Shown: one piece after another, positions 486 through 27,977 of the stretch
Layout: the number at the start of each line of letters is the position of its first letter
Position numbering within the stretch: the stretch's first letter is position 1
Source of the DNA: a virus
Virus record (IMG/VR): IMGVR_UViG_3300020203_000838
Coordinates: 1 to 29,920 of that record
DNA length: 29,920 nucleotides
Reading direction: 5' to 3' (one strand)
Notes under the pieces: generated by a model
Told to the model about the DNA's origin: nothing
Seen by the model: the letters and a program-made list of their open reading frames with translations, nothing else
Databases searched by the model: none
Position numbers and translations under genes: made by a program

Positions 486-2798
486 TCAGCGCATTTTTGG
501 TAAATAACCTAAAACCGCCGGAACTTGTTGACGTGAAGACTGCTTACTGAACTGCTTACTGAACGGATCATTAAATAATAAAGGATTCTTTACAGTAAAC
601 CCTTTTGTTAGCCAAAATTTGTACGCCAGATATGCATTCAAAAGAGCCATAAATCCATCGTTTGGAGTCGAACCTTTTACATAATGCGGCGTAACTTCAC
701 CGGCGCGACTCAAGGAAGGCTTGATCTCCATACTAGAACAATGCTGAATCAACCATCCGATCTTGTCGTAATCACCATATGGAAATCTTATATTTCCCTT
801 TTTCATCTGATCGTACAGCTCAGCTACATAATAATCTCTCTCAAACGTAATGGTCTTGGGAAAAATTTCTTTATTGTATTTTATATGCTCATTAACCCGA
901 GCCGAAGCCTGAGACACTAAGAACCTATCACCGTACTCATTCTGCATGATCTCAGAGAAGTCATTCGTATATCCGATATCGCACACAGCGATATTTACAC
1001 TGTAGATTCTCATGATATGATCCAAGAACTCTTTTTTGGATGCATAATCGTTACGCTTGAATTTCCATGCGTACTCGATACTCAATCGTCCCTGGCTGCC
1101 CACGGTCATGATGACGACGCAGCTGTAGCTCTGACCTTGTCTCTTTATTTTATCCGAATCTAATAGCTGTTCCATATCGGCCTTCGCGCCGATATCGATC
1201 CCCGCGACGACACATTCTTCGGATCCTTGTGGAATCGATCCTCGGAATTTTCTCTGATCTCCACATTTGGCCCGAATGGCTTCGGGAGTCATCACGCCAA
1301 CTTCACCGTTGAAAAACTCTCCCAAAACCTCGTTCATATAAACGCGTTCCGTATTGATCGGATGGATGCCCGATTTTTCGCTGAGAATCTTCTCTTTTTG
1401 AAATGTTGGAATGAATAATTGGCTCATATGAAAGCCAACAAACTTACATTGTGCCGGGTCCTTCAGCGGAACCCACTTTCCAGACTCGGCAGCTTTTCTT
1501 TTATCCTGAAGATGATCACAAAAAGGGCACTTTACAGTAAATCCGGTTATCCAGGTTTTTTCCCATTCGTCAGATCCGGGTGTGTAGAGCGGGAAGAATT
1601 TGTCACATCCGGCACAATGAAGATGGTAATATTGTTGAGAAGACTGATTCCACATCTCAAAAAATTCAGATCCGCGTTGTTTCGGTGTACCGAAAAATAC
1701 CTGAACACCATCACCGCTTTTTCCATAACGTGACTGAGATAGAATCTTGGTCGCGTTACCCAGAGCAGCTGGTAAAAAATCCTGGCAATTATGTGCGATC
1801 GGCCCACCTAAACTTTTAACTTTTATATCAGGGCAAATAATAAAATTATGATTATCCTGAACACCGATATCGTAGACGTTTTCTTGTTTTTTTAGCGCTA
1901 CGATGCTTTCAACTGCTCTAAGATGAAGATTAGTTCCGACTGATGTTTTTAGTAATGTTCCGATTGTTAGTTGATCAGTCCTCAACCAGCCAGATTCAGT
2001 TAGAAACCTGTGGTCTGGAGTACATTTTATTTTTATATGCCCGCATTTTATTTGCAATAATTTTCTTTTTCCACGTAACCATACTTTATTTATTTTTTTA
2101 TATTCAAATTCATTAGTCTGCTCATTGAAAGTTTTAACTAACGGCAGTGTCTTTCCAGCAGCAAAATCATCATACAATTTACCAATCTGTTCTTTACCAT
2201 CAATAGTTTCGATGCATTGTTTATATGGAAAACACTCGTCGAAGATCATTACATCCGCAGAACGGCCACGAATCCGGTCCGCCGTATCTCCGGTGGATTC
2301 GATCCAGATATGATTTCCACCAATGAATTGTTTGAAATTTAATGAATCATTCGTAGGACTGGTCGGATCAAGAATAGACTGAAAATATGATTTTGGCTTG
2401 GCAGTTTTTTTGCCAGTCTCGATCATAATAGAATTAGATATTAATGGATTAAGCTTTGTTTTGGAATACGCGTATGCCAATTCCAATTGAGGAAAGCAAT
2501 GCATGATCCTAATGGGTGGCTTGCCTCCGGTTCCGAAAAGCCCACAGCCCATGAAATACATTTCCAGCGCCGAAGCCATGGTGGTGGCTCCGACCTGACG
2601 ACCCTTAACAATGATTACGGGCTTGGAATCGTTCTCAAGCGCTTTGATCGCAATGTATCGATAAATATCCGCGAAAGGTTTGTAACCATTGCCGCTAAGA
2701 CTGAAGGGCTTTCCTTCAAGAGTTAGAAACTTTTCACAAAACCAGACCGGGTCAAGACTTAGAAGTTTATTTTTAAATGTTTCGAACTCGGTCGACAA
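486..2798 (-). CDS. terL: Terminase large subunit (TerL), interrupted by an in-frame mini-intein
   Basis: Motor and nuclease that packages phage DNA into the prohead. The ATPase part shows a Walker A-like motif GRQVGATT (residues 66-73), Walker B VMIFDE (183-188) and the coupling motif FGTP (369-372). Two CxxC pairs (C395/C398, C424/C427) suggest a zinc-binding insert like that of GpA-type terminases. The RNase H-fold nuclease has acidic residues D535 (GIDIG), D607 (VCDIG) and D714 (PNDGF). Residues 189-337 are an intein; the spliced protein would be 621 residues, normal for the family. The start is a TTG preceded by GTAGG; the frame upstream is closed by TAA and no in-frame ATG is nearby. 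Gene function is certain by motif; the exact TerL family (GpA-like) is less so. Confidence 0.93.
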   Translation of the reverse strand: MSTEFETFKNKLLSLDPVWFCEKFLTLEGKPFSLSGNGYKPFADIYRYIAIKALENDSKPVIIVKGRQVGATTMASALEMYFMGCGLFGTGGKPPIRIMHCFPQLELAYAYSKTKLNPLISNSIMIETGKKTAKPKSYFQSILDPTSPTNDSLNFKQFIGGNHIWIESTGDTADRIRGRSADVMIFDECFPYKQCIETIDGKEQIGKLYDDFAAGKTLPLVKTFNEQTNEFEYKKINKVWLRGKRKLLQIKCGHIKIKCTPDHRFLTESGWLRTDQLTIGTLLKTSVGTNLHLRAVESIVALKKQENVYDIGVQDNHNFIICPDIKVKSLGGPIAHNCQDFLPAALGNATKILSQSRYGKSGDGVQVFFGTPKQRGSEFFEMWNQSSQQYYHLHCAGCDKFFPLYTPGSDEWEKTWITGFTVKCPFCDHLQDKRKAAESGKWVPLKDPAQCKFVGFHMSQLFIPTFQKEKILSEKSGIHPINTERVYMNEVLGEFFNGEVGVMTPEAIRAKCGDQRKFRGSIPQGSEECVVAGIDIGAKADMEQLLDSDKIKRQGQSYSCVVIMTVGSQGRLSIEYAWKFKRNDYASKKEFLDHIMRIYSVNIAVCDIGYTNDFSEIMQNEYGDRFLVSQASARVNEHIKYNKEIFPKTITFERDYYVAELYDQMKKGNIRFPYGDYDKIGWLIQHCSSMEIKPSLSRAGEVTPHYVKGSTPNDGFMALLNAYLAYKFWLTKGFTVKNPLLFNDPFSKQFSKQSSRQQVPAVLGYLPKMR
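541..564 (-). repeat. Perfect 12-bp tandem duplication in the terL 3' end
   Basis: TGCTTACTGAAC occurs twice in direct tandem on the plus strand. On the coding strand it encodes the repeated residues FSKQ-FSKQ just before the C-terminus of the terminase, in a Gln/Ser-rich tail beyond the nuclease domain. It is in frame and likely harmless. Confidence 0.9.
1788..2234 (-). other. Mini-intein (149 residues) in the TerL Walker B site
   Basis: The frame stays open through a segment that starts with Cys189 and ends with His336-Asn337, followed by Cys338: the hallmarks of a class 1 intein. Block B is CTPDH (T260, H263), block F is VYDIGVQDNHNFII (about 308-321), and block G is GGPIAHN before the +1 Cys. 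Only about 45 residues separate blocks B and F, so there is no room for a LAGLIDADG or HNH homing endonuclease. Removing it joins MIFDE to CQDFLPAALG and restores a continuous terminase Walker B region. A hand count over 1801-2220 gives about 33% G+C, against roughly 50% over sampled flanking rows, which suggests separate origin. Confidence 0.93.
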
Positions 2799-4524: not shown

Positions 4525-4737
4525 TTACTCGGAAATACCTGGAAACATCTTCTTTAGACGCTTTTTTCTTCTATCTCGCATTTTCCTACGCCATTCATCA
4601 ACAGATTTTACTTGATCCATTTGTCTATAAACGGATGTTCCGGGACCTTCGCCGCTTCCATCATCAATATAATCATAATTACTGTAAAATAATCCACGTG
4701 ATTGATCGTGAGCTTGATCATCATCTTTTTTAGACAT
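4525..4737 (-). CDS. Small unrecognised protein with a basic C-terminus
   Basis: 70 residues: an acidic, Ser/Gly-rich first half and a strongly basic segment (RRKMRDRRKKRLKK, about residues 50-63). The start codon overlaps the stop of the upstream nucleotidyltransferase gene by one base (TAATG), so the two are probably translationally coupled. The basic stretch could bind nucleic acid, but nothing else identifies the protein. Confidence 0.7.
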   Translation of the reverse strand: MSKKDDDQAHDQSRGLFYSNYDYIDDGSGEGPGTSVYRQMDQVKSVDEWRRKMRDRRKKRLKKMFPGISE

Positions 4738-5462
4738 TATAATCTCCCGTCTAAATAATTAGATAATTTACATTTATTCAAAAGATCAAGTACACGTAAA
4801 CGATCCATTTCTAATGCCGTACCGATCTTAGTATCCCAGTAATTACGCTTAATCTTTTTAACGTATTCAGTATTATTGCTGACCCATTCAATAATATTCG
4901 GATCAACATCAAAACCAGTCTTCGCGGCAAGGTAAAACATTCTTGCAATTCTGTTTACACTGTAAGTAAACGTAGTATGACTATCCAAACATGGCCTGAT
5001 TATTTTATTCTTAATATCTTTTAATCCGTGTCCAGTGGGGTCGAGGACAGTTTTTAGATTCAGCGGTAACAATAAAGCATTGCACGTAAAATCACGACTA
5101 AACATCTCTTTCTGTAGAGGAGCTGGGTTCTGGATACCTAGTTTTGATAGTTTTTCTTCAATCTGCGGTACAACAAAATTGGTTGAAAAATCAACTTTAA
5201 AATTACCAAGTTTAACTGAAACGTGACCATCATCGCCAATTATTGTCTTGACGGTAAACCTGTCCGACATAGCCGCGGCAAAATTATCAGCCAGGAATCT
5301 TACGCTGGCATCACCGGTCATGATATCAAGATCTTTATAAGAGAATTTGAAATCAGCAATGCATTTGTCTCTTGGAATGCCTCCGCAAATATACGGCTCA
5401 GATATGTTGCCGTTTTTGACGTGAATCTCCCAAATAGACAGCAGTATATCTTTCAGTTTCAT
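4737..5462 (-). CDS. CCA-adding enzyme / poly(A) polymerase-like nucleotidyltransferase
   Basis: 241 residues with the signature order of class II tRNA nucleotidyltransferases and bacterial poly(A) polymerases. Seen: GGIPRD (residues 27-32), the catalytic pair D44-x-D46 in KDLDIMTGD, a third candidate carboxylate D91 in KVDFST, RDFTCNAL (123-130), DPTGHGLKDIKNKIIR (141-156), and the neck helix RIARMFYLAAKTGF (171-184). Family members in bacteria usually exceed 400 residues, so this enzyme has only the head and neck and lacks the body and tail that bind tRNA. Which nucleotide it adds, and to what, cannot be told. The start overlaps the stop of the upstream gene by ATGA. It lies among probable packaging genes, an unusual place. 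Confidence 0.87.
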   Translation of the reverse strand: MKLKDILLSIWEIHVKNGNISEPYICGGIPRDKCIADFKFSYKDLDIMTGDASVRFLADNFAAAMSDRFTVKTIIGDDGHVSVKLGNFKVDFSTNFVVPQIEEKLSKLGIQNPAPLQKEMFSRDFTCNALLLPLNLKTVLDPTGHGLKDIKNKIIRPCLDSHTTFTYSVNRIARMFYLAAKTGFDVDPNIIEWVSNNTEYVKKIKRNYWDTKIGTALEMDRLRVLDLLNKCKLSNYLDGRL

Positions 5463-13642: not shown

Positions 13643-14623
13643 TCAGTCCTGACTTAGTGTTTGGACCAACGGATCGATGTTTTCTGGATAAGTTACGTTT
13701 AGTCGAAATTTATGATGGCCATTTAAGGCGTCCAGCCTGACTCCGGCGCCCAGTTCTATCAATTCATCTCGATGACGAGATAATTTCGGCACTACAAGAT
13801 CTACCGTTCCGTAGAGTGTAGGCTGTTGGAGAGTAGTTCCGATTATTGCGTCTTTTAATGAAATCGTCACATCCGAAACAACATCCATACCTTCTCGTCT
13901 AAAACGTTCGTGCGGGATAACGGTAATTTGAAGCATCGCATCTAGATAACGAGGCTGCATGAACATTTCGTCATAAATAAAATGTCCAGCTCCCGGGACT
14001 CGAACTTTGGTATCGGCGGTCACACCCTTTGGTATTGATATCGTAATATTTATTTTAGCCTGGTTAGACCCGGCACCTGAACAAGTTTTACAAATCTGCA
14101 CCGCTGCACCACTTCCCATGCATACGTTACATACCTCCGAGACCATAACGTTTTGACCGCGCCTTACTTTATAGCCAGTGCCGGTACATGCGTGACATTT
14201 CTTTTGAGAGTCGACGGTTCTACCTTTACCAGTACAATCATCACACTGTACCTGCTTTTCGTACTTACATTCTTTATCGCATCCAAAGATAGATTCTTCG
14301 AAAGTTAGCGTTACGGGAAGGTAAATTGTTTCCTGAATACGTCTCTGTTGTCTAGAAAAATTCTGAAAACCAATCATATCACGAAACGCTGCTGCAAAAT
14401 CTGGAGATCCTGGATTCCAGGCACCAACATTTACTGGAGACGGTTCGGGTTGTTTCAAAACATCATAAGCTTGATTTATGAGCTTGAATTTGTCGGTAGA
14501 TCCTTGATCTTTCGCAAGATCCGGATGGTATTTTTTTGCAAATTCACGATACCGTTTCTTAATATCATCCTCTGTAGAGGATGGATTCAATTCTAGTATA
14601 TTTAGAGCATCGGAACGATTCAT
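13643..14623 (-). CDS. dnaJ: DnaJ (Hsp40) co-chaperone
   Basis: Stimulates the ATPase of an Hsp70 (DnaK) and delivers substrate proteins to it. Of 326 residues, 1-60 are the J domain with the invariant HPD at 33-35; 61-90 are a short Gly/Phe-containing linker; 127-185 hold four CxxCxGxG zinc motifs (C127, C143, C165, C178 start them); 190-320 are the C-terminal substrate-binding domain. This is the complete class A layout, somewhat shorter than the bacterial average of about 375. The start overlaps the resolvase stop by ATGA. No DnaK is in the window, so it probably works with the host DnaK or one encoded elsewhere. Confidence 0.95.
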   Translation of the reverse strand: MNRSDALNILELNPSSTEDDIKKRYREFAKKYHPDLAKDQGSTDKFKLINQAYDVLKQPEPSPVNVGAWNPGSPDFAAAFRDMIGFQNFSRQQRRIQETIYLPVTLTFEESIFGCDKECKYEKQVQCDDCTGKGRTVDSQKKCHACTGTGYKVRRGQNVMVSEVCNVCMGSGAAVQICKTCSGAGSNQAKINITISIPKGVTADTKVRVPGAGHFIYDEMFMQPRYLDAMLQITVIPHERFRREGMDVVSDVTISLKDAIIGTTLQQPTLYGTVDLVVPKLSRHRDELIELGAGVRLDALNGHHKFRLNVTYPENIDPLVQTLSQD

Positions 14624-16715: not shown

Positions 16716-17693
16716 TCAATCTTCTGATTCGGAGTGATCGTCCCAGCCTTTAATATCGTCAAGACTCTTGACGTCTTTGGCCAGTAAGATACCGTCTGCC
16801 GAGACCACTATATCCATTTCAGAAATACATTCATCGCCATCAAATAAGTGGTTCTTCTTAACCTTTGCTCGCGATACGATCCCGTATTTGTACTTCTCTC
16901 CCTGCCGGGTTCGAGTCAGATCTCCCTTCCTGGTCAACTGAATAACTAGACTAGAAAGATAATACAGTTCTCCTCCGCCTTTTTCAGTTTGACCTGGACT
17001 ACCAATATTTGCATAGACCTGATTAATCACGAGAGTTGCGATGGATTGGTCTCCCGTTTCCATATCAACATAACGATTTGCAAGCTTATTAAACTTGCGA
17101 ACCGCAAACGCAACTTCCTTGGCCGTTACACCGGGCTGCTTTGAATAATCCTCATCCTCTTCGCTATCTTCGGTACTGTTGACGCTCGCCCCAACAGAAT
17201 CCCATACAATTAGGATTTTTAATTTTGGATTAATTTCCTTCGCCGCATGAACGATATTAGCAACAGCTTTGCAACCCTGGATGATATTATTGGTATCGAT
17301 GATTGCCAATTCATTTGGCTTGCCACCCATTTTGGTGAACCGATTGGCGGCAAATTTTCGTTCCGAATCCCACATCACAACCAGAACACCCTGTTCCTGG
17401 GCCTCTTTCATAAAAACCGCAGCATGGGTGCTTTTGCCAGAATCGGGCTTTCCTGATATCTGAACGATTCTTCCGAATGGAATTCCTTTTAAGGATGTCA
17501 GACTTTTCCAATGTGGACCACGAGTCCAGACGATGAAATCAGAGTCTTTATCGGAACGTGATATGGTGTCGCCCGTGCTTAACTGTTTAGCTAGACCGGT
17601 TTCCTTTTTTCCATAAGCTTCACGTGCTTTTGCAATGATCTGATCTATATTAATGGCGTCCGAAGCGGCGGTTTTTGTTTGTTTTTTTTCCAT
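16716..17693 (-). CDS. RecA/UvsX-type recombinase
   Basis: Catalyses homologous pairing and strand exchange. 325 residues: Walker A GKPDSGKST (81-89), a MWDSER segment (108-112 region) typical of the strand after it, Walker B LIVWDS (161-166), and VINQVYANIGSPGQTEKGG (222-240), the strand and L2-like DNA-binding loop region. An Asp/Glu-rich insertion (TEDSEEDEDY) lies around 174-183, and the C-terminus is acidic (DDHSESED), both common in RecA proteins. The frame could begin at a TTG at 17705, but the ATG at 17691-17693 is preceded by GGTAGG and lies just past the upstream stop. RecA of bacteria and UvsX of phages cannot be separated by eye; the context favours a phage type. Confidence 0.93.
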   Translation of the reverse strand: MEKKQTKTAASDAINIDQIIAKAREAYGKKETGLAKQLSTGDTISRSDKDSDFIVWTRGPHWKSLTSLKGIPFGRIVQISGKPDSGKSTHAAVFMKEAQEQGVLVVMWDSERKFAANRFTKMGGKPNELAIIDTNNIIQGCKAVANIVHAAKEINPKLKILIVWDSVGASVNSTEDSEEDEDYSKQPGVTAKEVAFAVRKFNKLANRYVDMETGDQSIATLVINQVYANIGSPGQTEKGGGELYYLSSLVIQLTRKGDLTRTRQGEKYKYGIVSRAKVKKNHLFDGDECISEMDIVVSADGILLAKDVKSLDDIKGWDDHSESED

Positions 17694-17698
17694 ATTGC

Positions 17699-18127
17699 CT
17701 ACCAAGTATTTTTATTTTTACCTAAGTTTCTAAAGAAGACATGACCATTATTTAATGAATTTATCTGTACTGACCACTTTTTGGCGGTCGCCTCGGCTTC
17801 TGCGCAGGCTTTTTTTGCCGCCACGACATCTGGATCCGCGGCTACCGTATGGGTCAACATTGTTTCGGTCATTTTTGCTGTTGATAAGGTTTTTTGTTTT
17901 TTATAGGTTTCGGCCTCTACCCTCTCTACATCATGTTTTGATTCTTTTGAACGCAACTCAACGTCATAAAGAATCGTTGATAGTCTGATCACGGCCTCCA
18001 AAAACATTGCCGCGGTACGATCAGCTTTAGACGAATCAAATTCGCCCAAATGAACCAAACGTAGATCATCTAGACATTTTTCGATCAAACCGGAGAGATC
18101 CTCCTCATTCGTTTTATTTTCGGCCAT
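17699..18127 (-). CDS. Unrecognised coiled-coil-like protein
   Basis: 142 residues, almost wholly helical and charged, with a long Lys/Glu/Ala-rich stretch (about 60-120) suited to a coiled coil, and a short C-terminal segment containing NNGHVFFRNLGKNKNTW. No catalytic motif is present. It lies 5 nt upstream of the recombinase start, so a role with the recombinase (for example as mediator or loader) is possible but not shown. Confidence 0.75.
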   Translation of the reverse strand: MAENKTNEEDLSGLIEKCLDDLRLVHLGEFDSSKADRTAAMFLEAVIRLSTILYDVELRSKESKHDVERVEAETYKKQKTLSTAKMTETMLTHTVAADPDVVAAKKACAEAEATAKKWSVQINSLNNGHVFFRNLGKNKNTW

Positions 18128-19138: not shown

Positions 19139-22100
19139 CTATTCATTATCAAGGTCGCCAGAATCATCCCATTCTAACAGTCCTTCATCGAAAAGATCGT
19201 CTTCAATTTCTATAAAAAGGTCTTTCGGATCAAGATTTTGTTGTGATGAATTATTTTCCGCTATTGCGGCGGCATCGACTTTGGTCTTTTTTAGGCTAAC
19301 TTGTTTAGCCTTCAAATCTGCCGGGACAGAAGGTGACGGAGCGAAACCAAATACATCTTCCAGGATAATCCCGATTTCATCTTCATATACGTTTGTCGTT
19401 CCGGAAAAATGTATAGCTATACCTTCCTCAAATTTTGCCCTGGATGAAATATCTTTCAATCTTGATTTAAGTTTCGTATATCCTTCAGGAAATATCGTAA
19501 GGGTACATCTTTCTCCCTTGATATCCTCGATCGTTGCCTTGACCATGTCCTGGCCGAAGAATTTTGACTTTTCTTTCTTTACTTTGAATTCAAATACGCT
19601 TTTGATTTCAGCCTTCATAGAAGGAATTCTTGACCGATCCTGGTAAGATCTGATCGTATTGATCAGTCCTGGGTTACGATCTTGGAAAAAAGTCCCGTAT
19701 GCATGACGTTTCGTGCATGAAAATGCCTCCCCTAAATACATCTTCTCAAGGGCATATTTTTCGCTCATAGACCAATCTGGAGTCTCGGGCCAAGGATATT
19801 GGAACTCTTCCTTGGTCGGGTCATGGCGTTTTAACCAGGTTTGTAGCTTTTTTCTATAATCAGAACAATATAAATATATTTGTTTCCTTGATATTCCGAA
19901 CGAATCCAAGCAGCCTGTGGCGGCGAGGGCTTGTATAGTGTTGGCCCGGACAGCTTTTGAATCCACCCGAACCATAAAATCAAAAAATGATCCGAATGGA
20001 CGTTTCTTCAAAATATCAAGAATCGCTTCATCCCCAACGAATTTCAGAGCATCGAACCCAGTAATTAAAGTATTTTCATCGCCAATCGTATATGCGAGAG
20101 TTGAACTGTTGAGATTAGGAGGCAGAATCGTAACGTTATGTTTTCTTATTTCCGACTTTATCTTCTCGATATTGTTTTTAGCAATTTTAGCGCCGGATCT
20201 TACTTCTGACTTCAAATTAGCCAGAAGAAACTCAACCGGATAGTGAGCTTTTAGATAAGCCGTTTGGTACGAAGTAAGTGAATAAAGAATTGAGTGACTG
20301 GCATTGAATCCGTAGCCTGAGAACAGCGCGATGATCTCATCCCAAATTTTGGTTGCCATGGCTTCAGAAATATTCTTATTTTTCTGAGCATCGCTGATAA
20401 AATCAAGGCGCCATTGTGCGGCCTTTTTAGGATTCTTTCCCTTTTCTTTGGTTAATTTACGTAGCCGATCTGCTTCGTGAAGATCCCATCCGGCCACATC
20501 CTGAGCCAGATACATCAAACATTCTTCATATAAGCCAAATCCATAAGTCGCACCGAAGGCACGTTCTAAAGACGAATGGAGAAGTTTTACCTTCTTTTCT
20601 CCATTCTTAGTTTTTACATAGTCTTCACGAATATCTCTCGCAGCAGGTCTGGCAAGAGAATTGATCGCGCTGATATCTTCGATTGATCTGGGTTGAACTT
20701 TTCGACATAAATCAATTGTTCCGCCTGACGTCCCGAGTTGGAATACGCCAAATGTATCGCCTCGGCTCAGAAGGTCATAAGTAGCCTGATCATCTGTTGG
20801 TAAGGGAGAAGGAGGCGGAGTCTTTCCTGATTGTTCAATAAGATCGTAGGTATCTTTAATAATATCAAGAGTTGTGGACCCCAGAAGATCCATCTTGACC
20901 AATCCGATTGCTTCGGCTCGTTCCTTGTCGTATTCAATCGCAACAGTTCCGTCTTTATCTTTTCTGAGCGGGACCAATCCACGCAGAGGTCTCGCCGCAA
21001 TAATCAATCCACCAGCATGGGTTGCCCAGGCTCGATATTTGCTCGAAATGGAGCTATAACGCTTTAATTCCGGATACTTGAGCGCATATTCTGCAAATAA
21101 AGGCGCTTCTATAAAAGCCTTCTCCACAGATTTGATCGTATCCGGAACGGCTCCCGCGATATCATTCCCTTTCTTTACAGCTTCGGCTCTGGAGCCTCCA
21201 AATTCACAAGCCCTAGCAATATCTCTTGCATAGACTTTAGGAGTTATGGTGTTGACGTTGGAAACGTGAGCTATATAATCTTCACCATATTTGGATACAA
21301 TGTACTCCTTTACACGATCTCGGCCAGATGGCGCGAAATCCATATCAATGTCAGGGAAGTCCGTCTTGAACTTATTTAGAAAACGCGCGAAAATTAATTT
21401 GTATTTGATCGGATCTGCCTGGTGGATCCCTACCAGATAGGCAATCAAGCATCCACCGACACTCCCTCGGCCAGCCCCGATCAGGACATCGTTATTTCGG
21501 GCCCATTTAACGAAATCCGAAACAATCAGCATATAACTGCTGAATCCATGGAATTCTAAGACTTCAAATTCTTCTTTAAGACGTTCCCTATACAGGGCTT
21601 CCTCGCCCACTGGAACGAATTTAGAAAATGCCTTATCACAAACGTATCTTAAATAAGATTTATCTTGTGGTAATGTTCTGATCGATTCTTCTTGTAAGAC
21701 TAACCACGCCTGATAGTCAGGTAAATCAAGCTGGTCCTGAACTGGAAATATCGGAAGTTCTTTCCCTGCCGGATTTGAATACTTCAGATCTACCCAATCC
21801 GGTACTTCACACTGATCTGCAAACAATACTGTATTTTGGATCCACTCCTCTACAGATTCAGATGGAAAAGATCTTGATAAGAAATTAAAAACTTCATCGC
21901 CAGTATGGAGGAAGAAGTTCGGAACGTTATATTTTATTCTATTGTTTGAATATCTCGGCTGTCCTGAGCCGATCGCGAGCATTACATCATGCGTATCGTG
22001 GTCTTCTTTTTTTAAATAATGTGCATTGGAAGTCGGAACAATTTTTATATTCAACTTTCCAGCTAGCTGAACCGTATGATAATTTATGAAATATTGATCT

Positions 22101-22693
22101 ATAGAATCACTGTAAGGTGTCCCGAACCGTTTTAGATTATTAGGTTGGATCTCCAGTCCTAAATAAGGCCCAAAGATATCAACGAGTTTCAAAACAGTTT
22201 TTTCTGCTTCATCAAACTTCTTATTCATAAGAAGTTGAGACACGATGCCACTTCCGCATGAAGTCAGGCAGGTCACACCTTCAGAATGTTTCTGAAGCAT
22301 ATCCCAATCAATAACTGGGAAATTTCTTTTACCGATCGGAACCGTATGATCGAATCCTGAACGGTTAAGCAATAAAAGATTTTTATATCCTGTGGCGTTC
22401 CTGGCCAGCAGGATGATGTGGCGAAATGGTGCTGATTCGGTACGATTCTCTTCCCTTACATTATTAACGAAATAGAATTCACAGCCAACTATGTATTTAA
22501 CGCCAGAATCTTTGGCGGCCTTGTAGGCATCCCATACACATGCAAAACTTGCATGATCGGTAATCGCAACGGCTTTTTGGCCAAGCTGTTTGGCTGTACT
22601 GAATAAATCATGAGGAGAGATGAGTGAATCGAGAATTGAAAAATGTGAATGATTATGCAGAGAGACGTAAGGCCGGTTCAATTTCTGCTCCAT
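19139..22693 (-). CDS. dnaE: DnaE-type (family C) DNA polymerase III alpha subunit
   Basis: Replicative DNA polymerase. 1184 residues, close to bacterial DnaE. The N-terminal PHP domain keeps likely metal ligands: H13 and H15 in SLHNHSHFS, D46/H47 in ITDH, E72 in GCEF, so a metal-dependent proofreading activity is possible. The polymerase core has GAGRGS (406-411), PDIDMDF with D450 and D452, HAGGLI (559-564) and the third aspartate D602 in KMDLLG. Later come a helix-hairpin-helix region and an OB-fold-like domain (about 1030-1095). The end is acidic. No clear beta-clamp-binding motif is visible. The start overlaps the peptidase gene by 41 nt; a shorter start would delete the PHP metal site, so the overlap is real. 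Confidence 0.97.
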   Translation of the reverse strand: MEQKLNRPYVSLHNHSHFSILDSLISPHDLFSTAKQLGQKAVAITDHASFACVWDAYKAAKDSGVKYIVGCEFYFVNNVREENRTESAPFRHIILLARNATGYKNLLLLNRSGFDHTVPIGKRNFPVIDWDMLQKHSEGVTCLTSCGSGIVSQLLMNKKFDEAEKTVLKLVDIFGPYLGLEIQPNNLKRFGTPYSDSIDQYFINYHTVQLAGKLNIKIVPTSNAHYLKKEDHDTHDVMLAIGSGQPRYSNNRIKYNVPNFFLHTGDEVFNFLSRSFPSESVEEWIQNTVLFADQCEVPDWVDLKYSNPAGKELPIFPVQDQLDLPDYQAWLVLQEESIRTLPQDKSYLRYVCDKAFSKFVPVGEEALYRERLKEEFEVLEFHGFSSYMLIVSDFVKWARNNDVLIGAGRGSVGGCLIAYLVGIHQADPIKYKLIFARFLNKFKTDFPDIDMDFAPSGRDRVKEYIVSKYGEDYIAHVSNVNTITPKVYARDIARACEFGGSRAEAVKKGNDIAGAVPDTIKSVEKAFIEAPLFAEYALKYPELKRYSSISSKYRAWATHAGGLIIAARPLRGLVPLRKDKDGTVAIEYDKERAEAIGLVKMDLLGSTTLDIIKDTYDLIEQSGKTPPPSPLPTDDQATYDLLSRGDTFGVFQLGTSGGTIDLCRKVQPRSIEDISAINSLARPAARDIREDYVKTKNGEKKVKLLHSSLERAFGATYGFGLYEECLMYLAQDVAGWDLHEADRLRKLTKEKGKNPKKAAQWRLDFISDAQKNKNISEAMATKIWDEIIALFSGYGFNASHSILYSLTSYQTAYLKAHYPVEFLLANLKSEVRSGAKIAKNNIEKIKSEIRKHNVTILPPNLNSSTLAYTIGDENTLITGFDALKFVGDEAILDILKKRPFGSFFDFMVRVDSKAVRANTIQALAATGCLDSFGISRKQIYLYCSDYRKKLQTWLKRHDPTKEEFQYPWPETPDWSMSEKYALEKMYLGEAFSCTKRHAYGTFFQDRNPGLINTIRSYQDRSRIPSMKAEIKSVFEFKVKKEKSKFFGQDMVKATIEDIKGERCTLTIFPEGYTKLKSRLKDISSRAKFEEGIAIHFSGTTNVYEDEIGIILEDVFGFAPSPSVPADLKAKQVSLKKTKVDAAAIAENNSSQQNLDPKDLFIEIEDDLFDEGLLEWDDSGDLDNE

Positions 22694-23294
22694 AGATCGA
22701 CTCTATAACTCTGTAACGTTCTCGCCAAAAACCATCATCGTCATGATCCAGATTAGTCAAAAATAATTTGATCTGATCATATTTTAATGATTTATTACTT
22801 ATTAAGAAGTGTGCCAGGGCTCTTACACAAGACCAATGTTCAGTTAACTTATCAATAATTAAGTTCTGAATGGCTCGTTTGAGCGATTTTCCAACATCAG
22901 CCGGTATTTTGTTTTTCCTTAATAATAAGGAAACTTCTTTAAAGTCTTCTGAAGAAGCTCGGTTTTTTGAGAGATTTATTTCTGAGCCGAAAAGTTCTCT
23001 TATAAGAATTTGTTCTGCTGCCTGACCTGCCAGGAGAACTGATAATTGAGAATGGAAAATTGATTCGTCTAAAGGTGTTGGTTTGTCCGAAACCATAACG
23101 AAGTATTTATATTTTGTAATGCCGTAATTACTATGAATAAGTTTACTGGACTGGATGTAACAAAAATTAAGAATACCGCAAATAATGTGTCCAGCTTCAT
23201 GATAAGCAGTCAGTAAGAGGTCAGAGTTAATTTGTTTAGAGCGTGACTGTCTATTCGGGGCTCGTTTTATTTTTTTATTTAAGCTCGGCTTCAT
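22653..23294 (-). CDS. Stand-alone FtsH-type (M41) zinc metallopeptidase
   Basis: 213 residues. AYHEAGHIICG gives the HExxH zinc site (H32, E33, H36), LLAGQAAEQIL (87-97) matches the conserved GGRAAEE-like helix of FtsH, and D117 in SSEDFKEV is at the place of the third zinc ligand. It has no AAA+ ATPase domain and no membrane segment, both of which precede this domain in FtsH, so the protease either cleaves unfolded substrates alone or borrows an unfoldase. The N-terminus is basic. It overlaps the gene on each side, including 41 nt with dnaE, so it is translated with the polymerase. Substrate unknown. Confidence 0.85.
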   Translation of the reverse strand: MKPSLNKKIKRAPNRQSRSKQINSDLLLTAYHEAGHIICGILNFCYIQSSKLIHSNYGITKYKYFVMVSDKPTPLDESIFHSQLSVLLAGQAAEQILIRELFGSEINLSKNRASSEDFKEVSLLLRKNKIPADVGKSLKRAIQNLIIDKLTEHWSCVRALAHFLISNKSLKYDQIKLFLTNLDHDDDGFWRERYRVIESIYGAEIEPALRLSA

Positions 23295-23574
23295 TCAAGG
23301 AAATGATGACAGATTCGAAGCCAGTCGTCAGGTTATCACAATCCCGAACCTTACATTTTATCGTAACTACACTAGACCCGAATGTACCGGTGGCGGCATA
23401 ACTACCGTTCTCTACATAAAATAATCCAGCCTGAAAGAATACCTTATTTCTCACAAAACCAGCTTCCTCAAATATCGGAACATGCTCTCGCATAATTGGA
23501 AAGTTTAATTGATATGATAAGGTTGAGGCGGAACAGCAAGATTTAGTGCGTTGTTTTGTAAAAATTTCGGACAT
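23275..23574 (-). CDS. Small unrecognised protein
   Basis: 99 residues, predicted beta-rich in its second half (VFFQAGLFYVENGSYAATGT), with a few scattered cysteines that do not form a clear metal site. It overlaps the M41 peptidase start by 20 nt. No ribosome site is visible before the ATG; instead an 8-bp hairpin ends 5 nt upstream of it, which may affect translation. Confidence 0.65.
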   Translation of the reverse strand: MSEIFTKQRTKSCCSASTLSYQLNFPIMREHVPIFEEAGFVRNKVFFQAGLFYVENGSYAATGTFGSSVVTIKCKVRDCDNLTTGFESVIISLNEAELK

Positions 23575-23626: not shown

Positions 23627-23917
23627 TTATTTAGAGAAACTAACGCCGCGGCTCTCCAGTACGAAAAAGCAAAACTTGATCTTTGCGGCTTCCGTATCAT
23701 AGGCATCTTTATACGGTGCCTGGATTTCCTTTACCATTTCCTTGGCCTGAGTGAGTTTTTCGTCCTCTTCTTTGGCCCGTTCAATCTCATACGCGTGAGA
23801 TTCAGATTCATAAATTTTCTTCTTTATTTCTTCCAAATCCATTGATTGGACTGCTTCCTCAAAGCCAGTCGGGAGACGTTTTTGAAGGCGTTTTGGAAAT
23901 TCTTTATCTTCGCTCAT
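23627..23917 (-). CDS. Small unrecognised helical protein
   Basis: 96 residues, mostly charged helix (MDLEEIKKKIYESESHAYEI, about 26-45) with a C-terminal ESRGVSFSK. It could form a coiled coil. No motif for function. It starts 15 nt after the trigger factor stop and so is probably co-transcribed with it. Confidence 0.7.
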   Translation of the reverse strand: MSEDKEFPKRLQKRLPTGFEEAVQSMDLEEIKKKIYESESHAYEIERAKEEDEKLTQAKEMVKEIQAPYKDAYDTEAAKIKFCFFVLESRGVSFSK

Positions 23918-23932
23918 TAGAATCTTTCCCTG

Positions 23933-25201
23933 TTAATCTAAAGTTTTACACGTAGAGACGAGATGAGTCAGGGTGTATTGATCCCTGATTTGTCCCTTCA
24001 ACACCTGAAGGACTCCTCTCTCTTTCAGGTTCGAGAGGATCTTATCGACATCCGTTTTCTCTGGATGCTCCTTCACCACCGTCTCTACATTCTGCTGGAT
24101 TTGCGCAAAAACCTCTTCATCGGTCATTTGCGCATCAATCTCTAATTCTCTCACTTTATCCAAAATAAATGTTAATTTGATGGATTTTTCAGAATCTGAC
24201 AAAAGCTTTTCTTTTTGATCATCTGTAATTGATTCCCAATCCAACTTATTGGTCTTATCTGCACGGGCTTTGAATTGAGCTTCCGTCGTGACGAGCCAAT
24301 CCGGAATCTTAAAATCATGGTTCTGAACCAATCGATCCGCAACTTGCTGATGATTATAGTTCTTACGATACTCCTCAACCTTCAATCCAGCAATTCCTAA
24401 TGCTTTTTCTCTCAAATCATCAAAGGATGCCAATCCTACCTTTACCGCGAGACTATCATCGAGCGGAGGTAAGTTCTTTTTGGAACCCATTTTTAATGTG
24501 AATTTGAAATGAAGAGTTTTTCCGCTATATTTTTCCGTAACTTGTTCCGGAACCGCAATATCAAACTCTCTCGTATCTCCCATCTTCATACCCAAAATAT
24601 TATCATCAAAGGCAGGAAGCGGAGCTTCTCCTACCAAAAGAAGCTGATTATTTCCAGATAATTCTGATTGAATATCTCCATCAATAAACGTTTCATAATC
24701 AGCTATAATTGAATCTCCGACCTGGATAAAATCAGAATCCTGGTACGGAAGAGCTTCAGCATGCTGGACTCTTAATTGATGAAGAATCTTCTCCGCCATA
24801 TCTCCGGCACTGATCGGAGCAGGGAATTTTGGAATTTCAAACTCTTTATACTGCTTTAATTCAAATTCAGGCTTCTTTTGAAGTAAAAATTCACATTCAA
24901 ATGAATCATTTTTCAATTCCAAAGAAGTAAATTTGGGATTACCAAGTGGGGTTATTTTTTGTTCAGAAATGGCTTTTTCAAAAGCAAATTGAGCTAATCT
25001 CTGTTTTACCGATTCATCAATTTGCTTTTTGAATCTAATTTTTAGAATTTCATTCGTTGCTTTGCCTGGGCGGAAGCCTGAGACCTTTACGTCCTTCATT
25101 TCATCCAGAACAGCATTGCGCTGAGTCTCGATATCTTCGAGACCCGTTCGGCATTGAATTTGAACTTTACAGTATTCCAGATCATTAACTTGAATTTCCA
25201 T
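23933..25201 (-). CDS. tig: Trigger factor (ribosome-associated chaperone / prolyl isomerase)
   Basis: Binds the ribosome exit tunnel and folds nascent chains. 422 residues, against about 432 in E. coli, with all three parts: the N-terminal domain with the ribosome-docking signature GFRPGK (42-47); the FKBP-like isomerase domain (about 150-245) including DSIIADYETFIDG, LPAFDDNILGMKMGDTREF and the FKFTLKMG strand; and the helical C-terminal chaperone arms. GGAGAAAG precedes the ATG. It is flanked by an Fe-S exonuclease and small unknown genes on the same strand, inside the phage block, so it is not a stray bacterial locus. The gene is intact, with no frameshift. Confidence 0.95.
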   Translation of the reverse strand: MEIQVNDLEYCKVQIQCRTGLEDIETQRNAVLDEMKDVKVSGFRPGKATNEILKIRFKKQIDESVKQRLAQFAFEKAISEQKITPLGNPKFTSLELKNDSFECEFLLQKKPEFELKQYKEFEIPKFPAPISAGDMAEKILHQLRVQHAEALPYQDSDFIQVGDSIIADYETFIDGDIQSELSGNNQLLLVGEAPLPAFDDNILGMKMGDTREFDIAVPEQVTEKYSGKTLHFKFTLKMGSKKNLPPLDDSLAVKVGLASFDDLREKALGIAGLKVEEYRKNYNHQQVADRLVQNHDFKIPDWLVTTEAQFKARADKTNKLDWESITDDQKEKLLSDSEKSIKLTFILDKVRELEIDAQMTDEEVFAQIQQNVETVVKEHPEKTDVDKILSNLKERGVLQVLKGQIRDQYTLTHLVSTCKTLD

Positions 25202-25269: not shown

Positions 25270-26058
25270 CTATGTCCAATCAGTTGGACCGAAAAAATCA
25301 CCCTTATAGACTTGTTTCTTTCCTTCTTCGCACGATTCTAGGAAATCACAGAATTTGCATAAAAAGGTAGGATTGGCCCGCCAAAGCTTTTCTTCGGAGA
25401 TTTCAATCTGATACTGTAAATACTTGTCTTTAATCTTCAATACGTCAGCACGCTTGAACTCTGATGTAATGTATTCAAACCCGTGACGAATCAATACATA
25501 GGATCCGCGTACAGTTTCGATACTGGGATCTTCCAGCATCATCACGTATGCGTACGTGAGCAGCTGAAACCAGTCATTTTTAAGATATTTCTTATCTTTT
25601 GTTGTTTTGTAATCCGCAACATGGATCATTCCATCCGGATCCACTTGAACTCTATCGATCATTCCGTTCAACAATACCGTATCATCTATATTTACGTTGA
25701 ATTGTTTCTCAACCGAGAGAATCGAGCTTCGTATTATTTCTGGATTTGACCAGATATTCAGATATGAATTAAGAGCTTCGTAACCTTCTTTTTTCTGTTC
25801 AGGCGTTAATTCGGCTTTAAATTCTTTAACTGCCTGATTAAAACACCTTCCCATCACGACATGACAGGGATCGTTTCCACTTTCTAGATAATATTGGTGG
25901 AACAATTCTAGTATTCTATGAATGAATTTACCATACGTAAGATGAGCCCAATCTTTTTTTGGAAGCTTATCAATGTAAGAGAATTTGAATTTTCTTTTAC
26001 AATCTACATATGTTTTTGTTTTAGAGACTGATAATTTATATGGAGTTGTTGGTGGCAT
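25270..26058 (-). CDS. Cas4/RecB-like PD-(D/E)XK exonuclease with a probable 4Fe-4S cluster
   Basis: 262 residues. Motifs run in family order: SVSKTKTYVDCKRKF (first cluster Cys, C20), GKFIHRILE (H47), GMIDRV (D135), VADYKT (D149, K151), QLLTY (Q165, Y169), and a C-terminal CKFCDFLESC (C234, C237, C243). One N-terminal plus three C-terminal cysteines is the Fe-S arrangement of Cas4 and AddB-type nucleases, which resect or trim DNA ends. The start is the ATG at 26056-26058, overlapping the upstream stop by one base (TAATG); a longer frame from 26193 would add 45 residues out of family character. No cas1 or cas2 is nearby, so a recombination role fits best. Stop is TAG. Confidence 0.9.
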   Translation of the reverse strand: MPPTTPYKLSVSKTKTYVDCKRKFKFSYIDKLPKKDWAHLTYGKFIHRILELFHQYYLESGNDPCHVVMGRCFNQAVKEFKAELTPEQKKEGYEALNSYLNIWSNPEIIRSSILSVEKQFNVNIDDTVLLNGMIDRVQVDPDGMIHVADYKTTKDKKYLKNDWFQLLTYAYVMMLEDPSIETVRGSYVLIRHGFEYITSEFKRADVLKIKDKYLQYQIEISEEKLWRANPTFLCKFCDFLESCEEGKKQVYKGDFFGPTDWT

Positions 26059-27035
26059 TATATTAAAGCTCTTCTCATAAATGGTCTCCATAGATAGACC
26101 ATTCCGGCGCCTCCACCTCGACCAAATACCATTCCGGATAAATTTGAAACATTTGGATCTTTTAATTGATAAGGCTGCTTCGAAATTATCCAACGATTAA
26201 CTGCATTATCATAATAATAATACGTAATCGTATTATCTCTGGGATTGACATAACTCTTTAAAAAAGAGCCTGTTGATGTGAGGGTATCCGGACCATCGTT
26301 ATAAAGAAGGGCTCCATCACGAACAAATTCAGGGTTTTCAAGAGCGAAAAATTCTCTATTCAGCGCTGTTGGATCATTTCCGGATTCTGTTCTGGAATCT
26401 TGATAAATTACCAGAGCTTTTGGATTAAACACCTTATCCGCACGATCAGAGGATTGAGGAGCTGCTTCTTTTGGAATTATACGAATCTGGCTCGGAATGG
26501 TTCCGATTCCTTTTCCGGTTTGTCCTAGCGCATCCGTGGTCGTATAGATTTGCTTGTATTGATCGAGCGGGAGATCTGTCGCCCCGACCGGGTTACCATT
26601 GGCGTCAAAATAATTCGTCGTAACGTTCGGGACGTCCGGTGCGTCTACGGTGATCCCGGCGTTTCCTGCATTTCCATAATTAAACGTCGTGTTCTGAGCA
26701 TTGCTGGCGAACGGAAAAACCGCTCCCTGACGGTTATCCAGTCCCGTTACGGATGCATGACTCTTTCGTATAGTAGATTGATCAAATCCATAATGATTTA
26801 CAATAACTGAACTTGTGTCGGTACCGTTGGTTGCCAATATCTTTAACAGAACCGTTGGTGCGGTTTTTGGCAGAACTATCGGTGCTAAATACACAAGAGA
26901 GCTTGAATTAGGATCCGTCCCATCAAAAGTATAAAATATTGTGCTGGGAATATTTGCCGTGATGGTTACGGTCTGCGGAATACCCGGAACGACCTGAACA
27001 CTCGATTCAGTTATGGTGAGACTAATTACGGCCAT
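26058..27035 (-). CDS. Probable virion protein with a chitobiase C-terminal-like domain
   Basis: 325 residues. Residues 1-80 resemble the beta-sandwich found at the C-terminus of chitobiases and in many phage surface proteins: TVTITANIPSTIFYTFDGTD then a VYLAPIVLP strand. The rest is rich in Asn, Thr, Gly and Tyr and looks beta-structured, with QGAVFPFASNAQNTTFNYGN and a final Gly-rich MVFGRGGGAGMVYLWRPF. This fits a head-surface, tail-fibre or baseplate accessory protein, but which one is not clear. It is unusual here among replication genes. It overlaps the upstream gene by 14 nt and the nuclease gene by one base. No good ribosome site is seen. Confidence 0.8.
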   Translation of the reverse strand: MAVISLTITESSVQVVPGIPQTVTITANIPSTIFYTFDGTDPNSSSLVYLAPIVLPKTAPTVLLKILATNGTDTSSVIVNHYGFDQSTIRKSHASVTGLDNRQGAVFPFASNAQNTTFNYGNAGNAGITVDAPDVPNVTTNYFDANGNPVGATDLPLDQYKQIYTTTDALGQTGKGIGTIPSQIRIIPKEAAPQSSDRADKVFNPKALVIYQDSRTESGNDPTALNREFFALENPEFVRDGALLYNDGPDTLTSTGSFLKSYVNPRDNTITYYYYDNAVNRWIISKQPYQLKDPNVSNLSGMVFGRGGGAGMVYLWRPFMRRALI

Positions 27036-27402
27036 CAGGTATTAAGTTTAAAAACTTTCCATTTCGTTCAATTATTTTCTGTCTCAGAAGTTCTCTATAG
27101 ATTTTATGAGCCGCTTTTCTGCACAATTTAGCTATCTCCATATATATATCTTCATTTTCCCTACGATAAAACATAAGGAATTTTTCATAATAATCTAATA
27201 GTTCTTGATCCGGAAATCTGAATTGTTTATTTGATTCTTCATTTTCCAATAATAACGATACCTTTACTATCGCCGAAGATAGTAAAAATTTATAAAATTT
27301 ACCGGGTCCGGTTTGGGTATAACGGAGCACGAAATCTTTTTTGAAATTATAAGACATTCGGCTCCTAACTATATAATTAGTTATTCTGTCAATCATAGTC
27401 AT
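27022..27402 (-). CDS. Unrecognised basic helical protein
   Basis: 126 residues, many aromatic and basic, mainly helical. The C-terminal part (LCRKAAHKIYRELLRQKIIE, about 93-112) resembles a helix pair that might bind DNA, but I cannot match a family. The start overlaps the 2H phosphoesterase stop (ATGA); a second Met two codons later could also be used. Confidence 0.72.
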   Translation of the reverse strand: MTMIDRITNYIVRSRMSYNFKKDFVLRYTQTGPGKFYKFLLSSAIVKVSLLLENEESNKQFRFPDQELLDYYEKFLMFYRRENEDIYMEIAKLCRKAAHKIYRELLRQKIIERNGKFLNLIPDGRN

Positions 27403-27977
27403 CTTGAGAATTTAGCAGGAAGTTTATTCGGCCCTTTCAATACTGTTTTGGCGTATTTTGCCTTGGTTCTACCGATCGTAAATGGAAAATGAACGCTCAT
27501 TTCGTCATCCCCATGTTCTCCGCACCACAGAACAACTTCCGGCACGCCAAACACAATTGGTTCCTCCAGCTCTATCTCTTTTATCTTTTTAGGGCTGTAC
27601 GAGAGAGTCAGATGAGGTTTATACGTGGGATATGTTTTGGGATAATCCACACCCGCTTTATCTAGAGCTGATTTGATCAGATCACGAAATTCATGCAATT
27701 CAGGCGAGACTACCGATGCAATTATCGTGTAATCCTTGTCTCCCGATGATACATCGAAACACTTAACTTTATTTATTTTGATTGAAAATGGATACTGATC
27801 TGATGTTACTCTGTAAATATTAGTAATTGCGGTAGCGATGTCTTTTATAGATACGTCGTCTCCCAGATACATAACGGTTACGTGAAGCTCATCCAGAGGA
27901 GTCCTTGTTCCCGGAACTTCAATACTGGAGAAAAGTCTGGCAGTTTCGTGCGGGATATGAATAACTAAACAACTCAT
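27399..27977 (-). CDS. 2H phosphoesterase (LigT / 2',5'-RNA ligase-like)
   Basis: 192 residues with the two HxT motifs that define the family: LHVTVMYLG (H32, T34) and KPHLTLSY (H122, T124), placed about 90 residues apart as expected. Family members cut 2',3'-cyclic or 2'-5' phosphodiester bonds in RNA or cyclic nucleotides. The phage anti-CBASS nuclease Acb1 uses the same motif pair, so this protein may degrade host immune signals; RNA-end repair is the main alternative. The C-terminus is basic. It overlaps the genes on both sides by 4 nt and lies with a dNMP kinase and gp46-like ATPase. Fold is well supported, substrate unknown. Confidence 0.87.
   Translation of the reverse strand: MSCLVIHIPHETARLFSSIEVPGTRTPLDELHVTVMYLGDDVSIKDIATAITNIYRVTSDQYPFSIKINKVKCFDVSSGDKDYTIIASVVSPELHEFRDLIKSALDKAGVDYPKTYPTYKPHLTLSYSPKKIKEIELEEPIVFGVPEVVLWCGEHGDDEMSVHFPFTIGRTKAKYAKTVLKGPNKLPAKFSR

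Follow-up and report, generated by a model that had tools for sequence, protein, structure and literature searches.

Introduction

In bacteria, a chain arriving at the exit of the ribosomal tunnel is acted on by peptide deformylase, methionine aminopeptidase (MAP) and trigger factor (TF), and next by DnaK with DnaJ. Phages redirect translation initiation and elongation, and borrow chaperonins and DnaK. Huge phages encode initiation factors, elongation factors, ribosomal proteins and peptide deformylase, and the main text of the study reporting these genes names neither trigger factor nor chaperones (Al-Shayeb et al. 2020, PMC7162821). In Moraphages, which encode DnaK/DnaJ, DnaK is found in some members only and was recently acquired from Flavobacteriales, and the full text contains zero occurrences of trigger factor (PMC12619734). 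Phage RB43 encodes a J-domain co-chaperone, Rki, the rest of which is unlike other J-domain proteins (PMC3486835). The main texts of a jumbo-phage survey covering 224 genomes and of a 2026 jumbo-phage review do not mention trigger factor either, and we found no report of a phage-encoded TF in the open-licence papers searched. To our knowledge, and within the literature searched, a tunnel-exit chaperone as a conserved phage core gene is undescribed.

Here, we analyzed a stretch of 29,920 nucleotides (IMG/VR record IMGVR_UViG_3300020203_000838, positions 1 to 29,920; hereafter the window), in which a gene had been proposed from the sequence alone to encode a full-length phage TF.

Results

The window encodes a full-length trigger factor

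TF is a known protein family, and the window protein is a member of it by both sequence and fold. The gene and its parts are as follows:

23933..25201 (-), phage TF gene, matching Trigger_N, Trigger_C and TIGR00115 above cut-off, with an AlphaFold2 model resembling 1w26 and 2vrh
24860..25201 (-), N-terminal ribosome-binding domain (aa 1-114), matched to 1oms, the E. coli TF N domain
25061..25078 (-), GFRPGK signature for ribosome docking (aa 42-47), placed by comparison with E. coli positions 43-48
24473..24742 (-), FKBP-like (PPIase) domain (aa 154-243), fold retained, pocket partly lost (F177 and Y221 equivalents)
23936..24472 (-), most of the C-terminal chaperone domain (aa 244-422), from Trigger_C (aa 274-414) and the AlphaFold2 model

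The open reading frame (minus strand, 23933-25201) encodes 422 aa from an ATG start, is immediately preceded by the purine-rich tract GGAGAAAG, and lies at a locus where the plus-strand frame is riddled with stops; Shine-Dalgarno-like sequences precede the majority of the phage TF genes. The protein matched Pfam Trigger_N (2.6e-23, aa 1-139) and Trigger_C (1.3e-6, aa 274-414), both above gathering score. With the NCBIfam equivalog TIGR00115 (tig, cut-off 180.2 bits), it scored 197 bits over aa 14-414. An AlphaFold2 model built from 17 phage sequences (mean pLDDT 86.5) had full-length trigger factors as its top solved-structure matches, including E. coli TF 1w26 (Foldseek E 1.4e-22) and the ribosome-bound 2vrh (TM 0.71). 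Against full-length 1w26, the model aligned across 400 residues with a VIA Z of 20.6 and an rmsd of 7.4, the latter indicating that the domains are placed differently relative to one another, and the structural alignment was 20-21% identical. The N domain alone superimposed on 1oms over 114 residues (Z 13.7, rmsd 2.1). Family model and fold together confirm that this gene encodes a full-length TF.

The three domains originally predicted were recovered by different routes. The N and C domains were identified by Pfam, the C-terminal arm and chaperone domain being further covered by the full-length alignment to 1w26. The middle domain was recognized by its fold (VIA Z ~11-12 to SlyD and FKBP domains in the model) but not by Pfam FKBP_C, which gave no match at E 1e-3, and this domain is therefore degenerate at the sequence level. 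The GFRxGK motif does sit at the bacterial position, i.e., aa 42-47 compared to 43-48 in E. coli.

An uncultured huge-phage lineage carries TF as a core gene

Using alignments of TF and of the polymerase to scan viral contigs, we detected TF in 49 IMG/VR phage records including the window, reaching up to 481 kb and encoding proteins 27-44% identical to the window TF. Four further, more distant records (L179, L180, L181, and L183, hereafter "deep") encoded TFs 23-25% identical to it. The initial view that no common phage family carries this gene thus holds for characterized phages, but not for this uncultured lineage. The window itself is an IMG/VR record with a terminase large subunit, a DnaE-type DNA polymerase III (PolIII) alpha subunit, primase, RecA and RuvC, and 49 records share both the gene and its surrounding block, which bears out the reading of this TF as phage-encoded. 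The conserved neighbors in the window are:

25270..26193 (-), PD-(D/E)XK exonuclease, conserved upstream neighbor of TF (Pfam PDDEXK_1)
23627..23917 (-), conserved protein of 96 aa, encoded on the same strand as TF and 15 bp downstream of it
23275..23574 (-), conserved 99-aa protein with conserved cysteines
22653..23294 (-), M41-like (FtsH-type) protein with an HEAGH zinc motif, from a match below gathering score and an alignment
19139..22693 (-), PolIII alpha (PHP and DnaE domains), replication core adjoining TF, from domain matches and synteny
13643..14623 (-), DnaJ with a J domain including HPD, a Cys-rich zinc domain, and DnaJ_C, from domain matches

Gene order across the block is SMC, dNMP kinase, CHB, exonuclease, TF, two small ORFs, in some M41, and PolIII alpha, continuing at intervals through RecA, an SSB-like gene, RuvC and DnaJ to primase. 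This order was kept in every core locus reaching it as well as in the deep loci, although some members lack a single gene or carry an inserted one, and the exonuclease was found upstream of TF in all core and deep loci extending that far, in some with inserted genes. Such synteny, repeated across many independent contigs, rules out a chimeric contig at this locus. Among records with a polymerase at least 58% identical to that of the window, only G015 was without TF, and this record ends 204 bp before its polymerase match. Meanwhile, neither TF nor the block was found at 20 loci from distant DnaE-bearing phages, indicating that TF does not simply follow DnaE. The terminase family of the lineage was identified in 28 of 30 records tested, and is at most 26% identical to the terminases of cultured phages.

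Several additional features were observed around these genes. The M41-like protein is free-standing, without an AAA domain, and many members, though not all, encode it between TF and PolIII. In L028, L034, L153, L159, L168-L170, L173, L174, and L178, the PolIII alpha gene is interrupted or occupies two separate ORFs, which suggests inteins or introns. In the window, the ATPase and nuclease parts of the terminase large subunit (486-2798, minus strand) are separated by an insertion resembling an intein (Intein_splicing, 1e-9), and over-long, split terminase matches were likewise obtained in relatives G005, G012, G047, G051, and G053. A PolyA_pol head-domain nucleotidyltransferase close to the terminase (4737-5462, minus strand) is possibly a CCA-adding or tRNA repair enzyme. 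The replication block also includes a conserved protein with a CHB_HEX_C/Fn3-associated domain (26058-27035, minus strand), while a 2H phosphoesterase (27399-27977, minus strand) resembles the anti-CBASS protein Acb1 (Pfam Acb1, 3.5e-8) and was found at the same place in just one relative, L144.

The docking motif is retained while the isomerase pocket looks eroded

Next, we tallied functional residues (E. coli numbering) across 46 core phage TFs, 4 deep TFs and 55 bacterial TFs. The docking residues were near-invariant in core TFs, with G43, R45, and G47 found in 46/46 sequences, F44 in 45/46 (N in the exception), and K48 in 44/46 (H in two), even though pairwise identity between phage TFs drops to about 30%. 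The same residues were retained in the 4 deep TFs and in nearly all 55 bacterial ones, and the GFRxGK loop ranks among the most conserved stretches of the protein. For the isomerase pocket, F198, the residue whose replacement by alanine leaves E. coli TF without PPIase activity (PMC7804408), was retained in 43 of the 46 core TFs. F177, however, was lost in 38 (retained in 8/46), and Y221 was retained in none (0/46), the loop carrying it being mostly deleted. The window TF follows this pattern, with F198 and an aromatic residue at F168 retained and the F177 and Y221 equivalents lost. Deep TFs still display Y221 (4/4) and, in 3 of 4, F177, and F177/Y221-type residues are absent from some bacterial TFs too. 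An intact pocket belongs to the catalysis, and neither the family model nor the fold depends on it. The core clade thus seems to have preserved docking, while its isomerase catalysis seems eroded; judging from these residues, prolyl isomerization is probably weak or lost, and we read the phage TF as a ribosome-docked chaperone rather than an isomerase. Conservation of the docking motif could also reflect some other use of the N domain.

These patterns bear on the two routes originally put forward, i.e., action at the ribosome exit, or in virion assembly through the isomerase domain. The first emerged as the better supported, given the near-invariant docking motif and the occurrence of deformylase, MAP and DnaJ in the same phages, while the second was weakened by the pocket losses and the replication-gene setting. 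A broader version of the second would have the phage TF fold or hold released virion or replisome proteins away from the ribosome. Free bacterial TF can fold or hold proteins after release, and such off-ribosome activity has structural counterparts here, since 3gty and 3gu0, whose titles refer to folding and assembly activities, are among the top matches to the model; huge phages also build large virions. Yet an assembly chaperone is hard to reconcile with a docking loop this conserved, an eroded pocket, and a gene located among replication genes, and we regard this role as unlikely.

Genes for other exit-side factors co-occur with TF

Each of the 38 records searched encoded a DnaJ, identified by its J domain. 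Its distance to TF, measured in ten records, was 11-16 kb, and its HPD motif was intact in 13/13 orthologues read. The window DnaJ scored below the NCBIfam DnaJ_bact whole-protein cut-off (212 vs 377 bits). None of the 38 records searched (0/38) encoded an Hsp70, and GroEL was absent from 37 of them, the lone GroEL being found in a deep-clade record (G057:C1:33774-35279).

Because the window ends 4.7 kb upstream of TF, deformylase and MAP were seen in relatives and not inside the window. Peptide deformylase was identified in 17 of 18 large records, with catalytic motifs present; in ten records for which the distance was measured, it lies 8-11 kb from TF. Every copy or fragment read carried a C-terminal SEC-C-type tail, and the corresponding metal-binding motif CxCGSxKKYKKCC was observed in L195 (6369-6893), L196, L198, L199, L200, L008, L012, and L158. 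This type of tail is known from SecA, and is possibly an added hook for the ribosome or a partner. Family M24 was detected in 11 of the 18 large records, including all 8 of those >320 kb, with measured distances to TF of 138-152 kb; the single M24 protein tested was a type I methionyl aminopeptidase, well above cut-off, and shorter records without M24 may end before the gene. The lineage thus encodes four factors acting on chains as they leave the ribosome, i.e., TF, DnaJ, deformylase and MAP, although shared genome content does not prove that they form one pathway.

Phage TFs form a separate clade under purifying selection

To place the phage TFs, we compared them to bacterial Tig. All 46 distinct core phage TFs grouped in one fully supported clade in a 112-row tree, and in a careful 58-row tree this clade obtained 100/100 support, with core and deep TFs together split from bacteria at 85/98. 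The phage clade sits on a long stem. Support for the core and deep grouping was 58 in the 112-row tree, and a single origin of the two is tentatively favored. Best bacterial matches to the phage TF were only about 21-30% identical and spread across many phyla. A recent transfer from a host, one of the concerns attached to the original prediction, is ruled out by the tree and by this low identity. TF identity matrices correlated with those of PolIII (Spearman rho 0.94) and DnaJ (0.88), indicating that the TF gene has traveled with the phage. RecA (16716-17705 in the window, minus strand) deviates from this pattern: it is 21-68% identical among relatives, its matrix has a rho of 0.12 with that of TF, which suggests replacement at the locus, and it was left out as a lineage marker.

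Other candidate phage TFs were rejected. In a deposited "phages" collection, 23 TF hits were, as far as examined, bacterial in character: one adjoins clpP and clpX, the others opened were unannotated and marked UNVERIFIED, and those placed in trees nested in Pseudomonadota, Lachnospiraceae, other Clostridia, and Staphylococcus. Based on this tig-clpP-clpX context and nesting, we treated them as bacterial DNA. Seven IMG/VR hits (L182, L184-L189) lacked the phage block and grouped among bacterial TFs. The window TF is matched by PHROG 26774, but matches to this PHROG also occur in 12 of 14 control cell genomes, and it is therefore no proof of an earlier phage TF. The window TF does not behave as a host tig, as it nests in no bacterial phylum, has no clpP or clpX neighbors, and belongs to a separate clade within a phage block.

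The phage TFs are under purifying selection, with dN/dS of 0.05-0.19 in six close pairs with computable dS (dS was saturated in two more). This matters for the possibility that the protein is a decoy or inhibitor, acting mainly to the detriment of host proteins and less as a folding aid for phage ones, either by occupying uL23 and excluding host TF or by rewiring other TF partnerships (SRP/SecA access, ClpXP). Conservation of the docking motif would fit such a role, as would the cooperation of TF with ClpXP in E. coli (PMC7804408). A pure blocker, however, would not need the full-length chaperone body that selection maintains here, and the companion DnaJ, deformylase and MAP are productive factors, so that we see little likelihood in either variant, taken jointly. 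Finally, the gene might stem from contamination, contig chimerism or a very recent capture from a host, as hits of the deposited collection do, but this has a negligible probability given 49 records with a common gene order, a separate 100/100 clade on a long stem, and a best bacterial identity of ~21-30%.

Discussion

A proposed role at the host ribosome

Taken together, the best explanation is, in our view, quite probably an old, vertically inherited huge-phage TF acting at the host ribosome. Its identity, fold, docking motif, conservation, vertical inheritance and co-occurrence with the other factors are shown computationally, and its capture by the lineage is read as ancient. We infer that the protein, made after infection, would bind the tunnel exit of host ribosomes through the GFRxGK loop of its N domain, its cradle holding emerging phage nascent chains. 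It would thereby supplement or displace host TF as the ribosome pool switches to phage proteins, competition being implied by the shared docking site. Phage DnaJ would then pass chains on to host DnaK, and in larger relatives phage deformylase and MAP would join TF and DnaJ, so that phage proteins produced in bulk could be processed and folded on phage terms. Because the exit factors of these phages come with neither a ribosome nor an Hsp70, it is economical to suppose that host ribosomes and DnaK are borrowed. We lean, if only slightly, towards the further proposal that SEC-C-tailed deformylase, MAP, TF and DnaJ constitute a nascent-chain kit, i.e., a phage-controlled folding pathway running on host ribosomes and DnaK.

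If the phage TF works as proposed, it would add a new layer to host takeover, namely control over which side receives the emerging chain. By combining conserved docking with an eroded isomerase, it would also be a natural TF in which the two functions can be separated, and phage control of co-translational folding would become a directly testable question.

Comparison with known systems

The phage TF has in common with bacterial Tig (TIGR00115, PF05697/PF05698; 1w26, 2vrh) its three-domain layout, length, GFRxGK motif and fold. Unlike bacterial Tig, it is viral, is 20-21% identical to the E. coli protein, lacks F177/Y221 in the core clade, and is linked to PolIII and DnaJ rather than to clpPX. 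As with RB43 Rki (PMC3486835), the phage would supply a co-chaperone and use host DnaK, which is here a proposal; unlike Rki, the huge-phage DnaJ has J, zinc, and C-terminal domains, and forms with TF a lineage-wide core pair. Moraphages (PMC12619734) are likewise large phages with chaperone genes, but, in contrast to some of them, the TF-bearing lineage had no Hsp70 in the records searched. Finally, the huge phages of Al-Shayeb et al. 2020 (PMC7162821) similarly encode translation-takeover factors including peptide deformylase, and the lineage described here differs in its conserved exit-side set of TF, DnaJ, peptide deformylase, and MAP.
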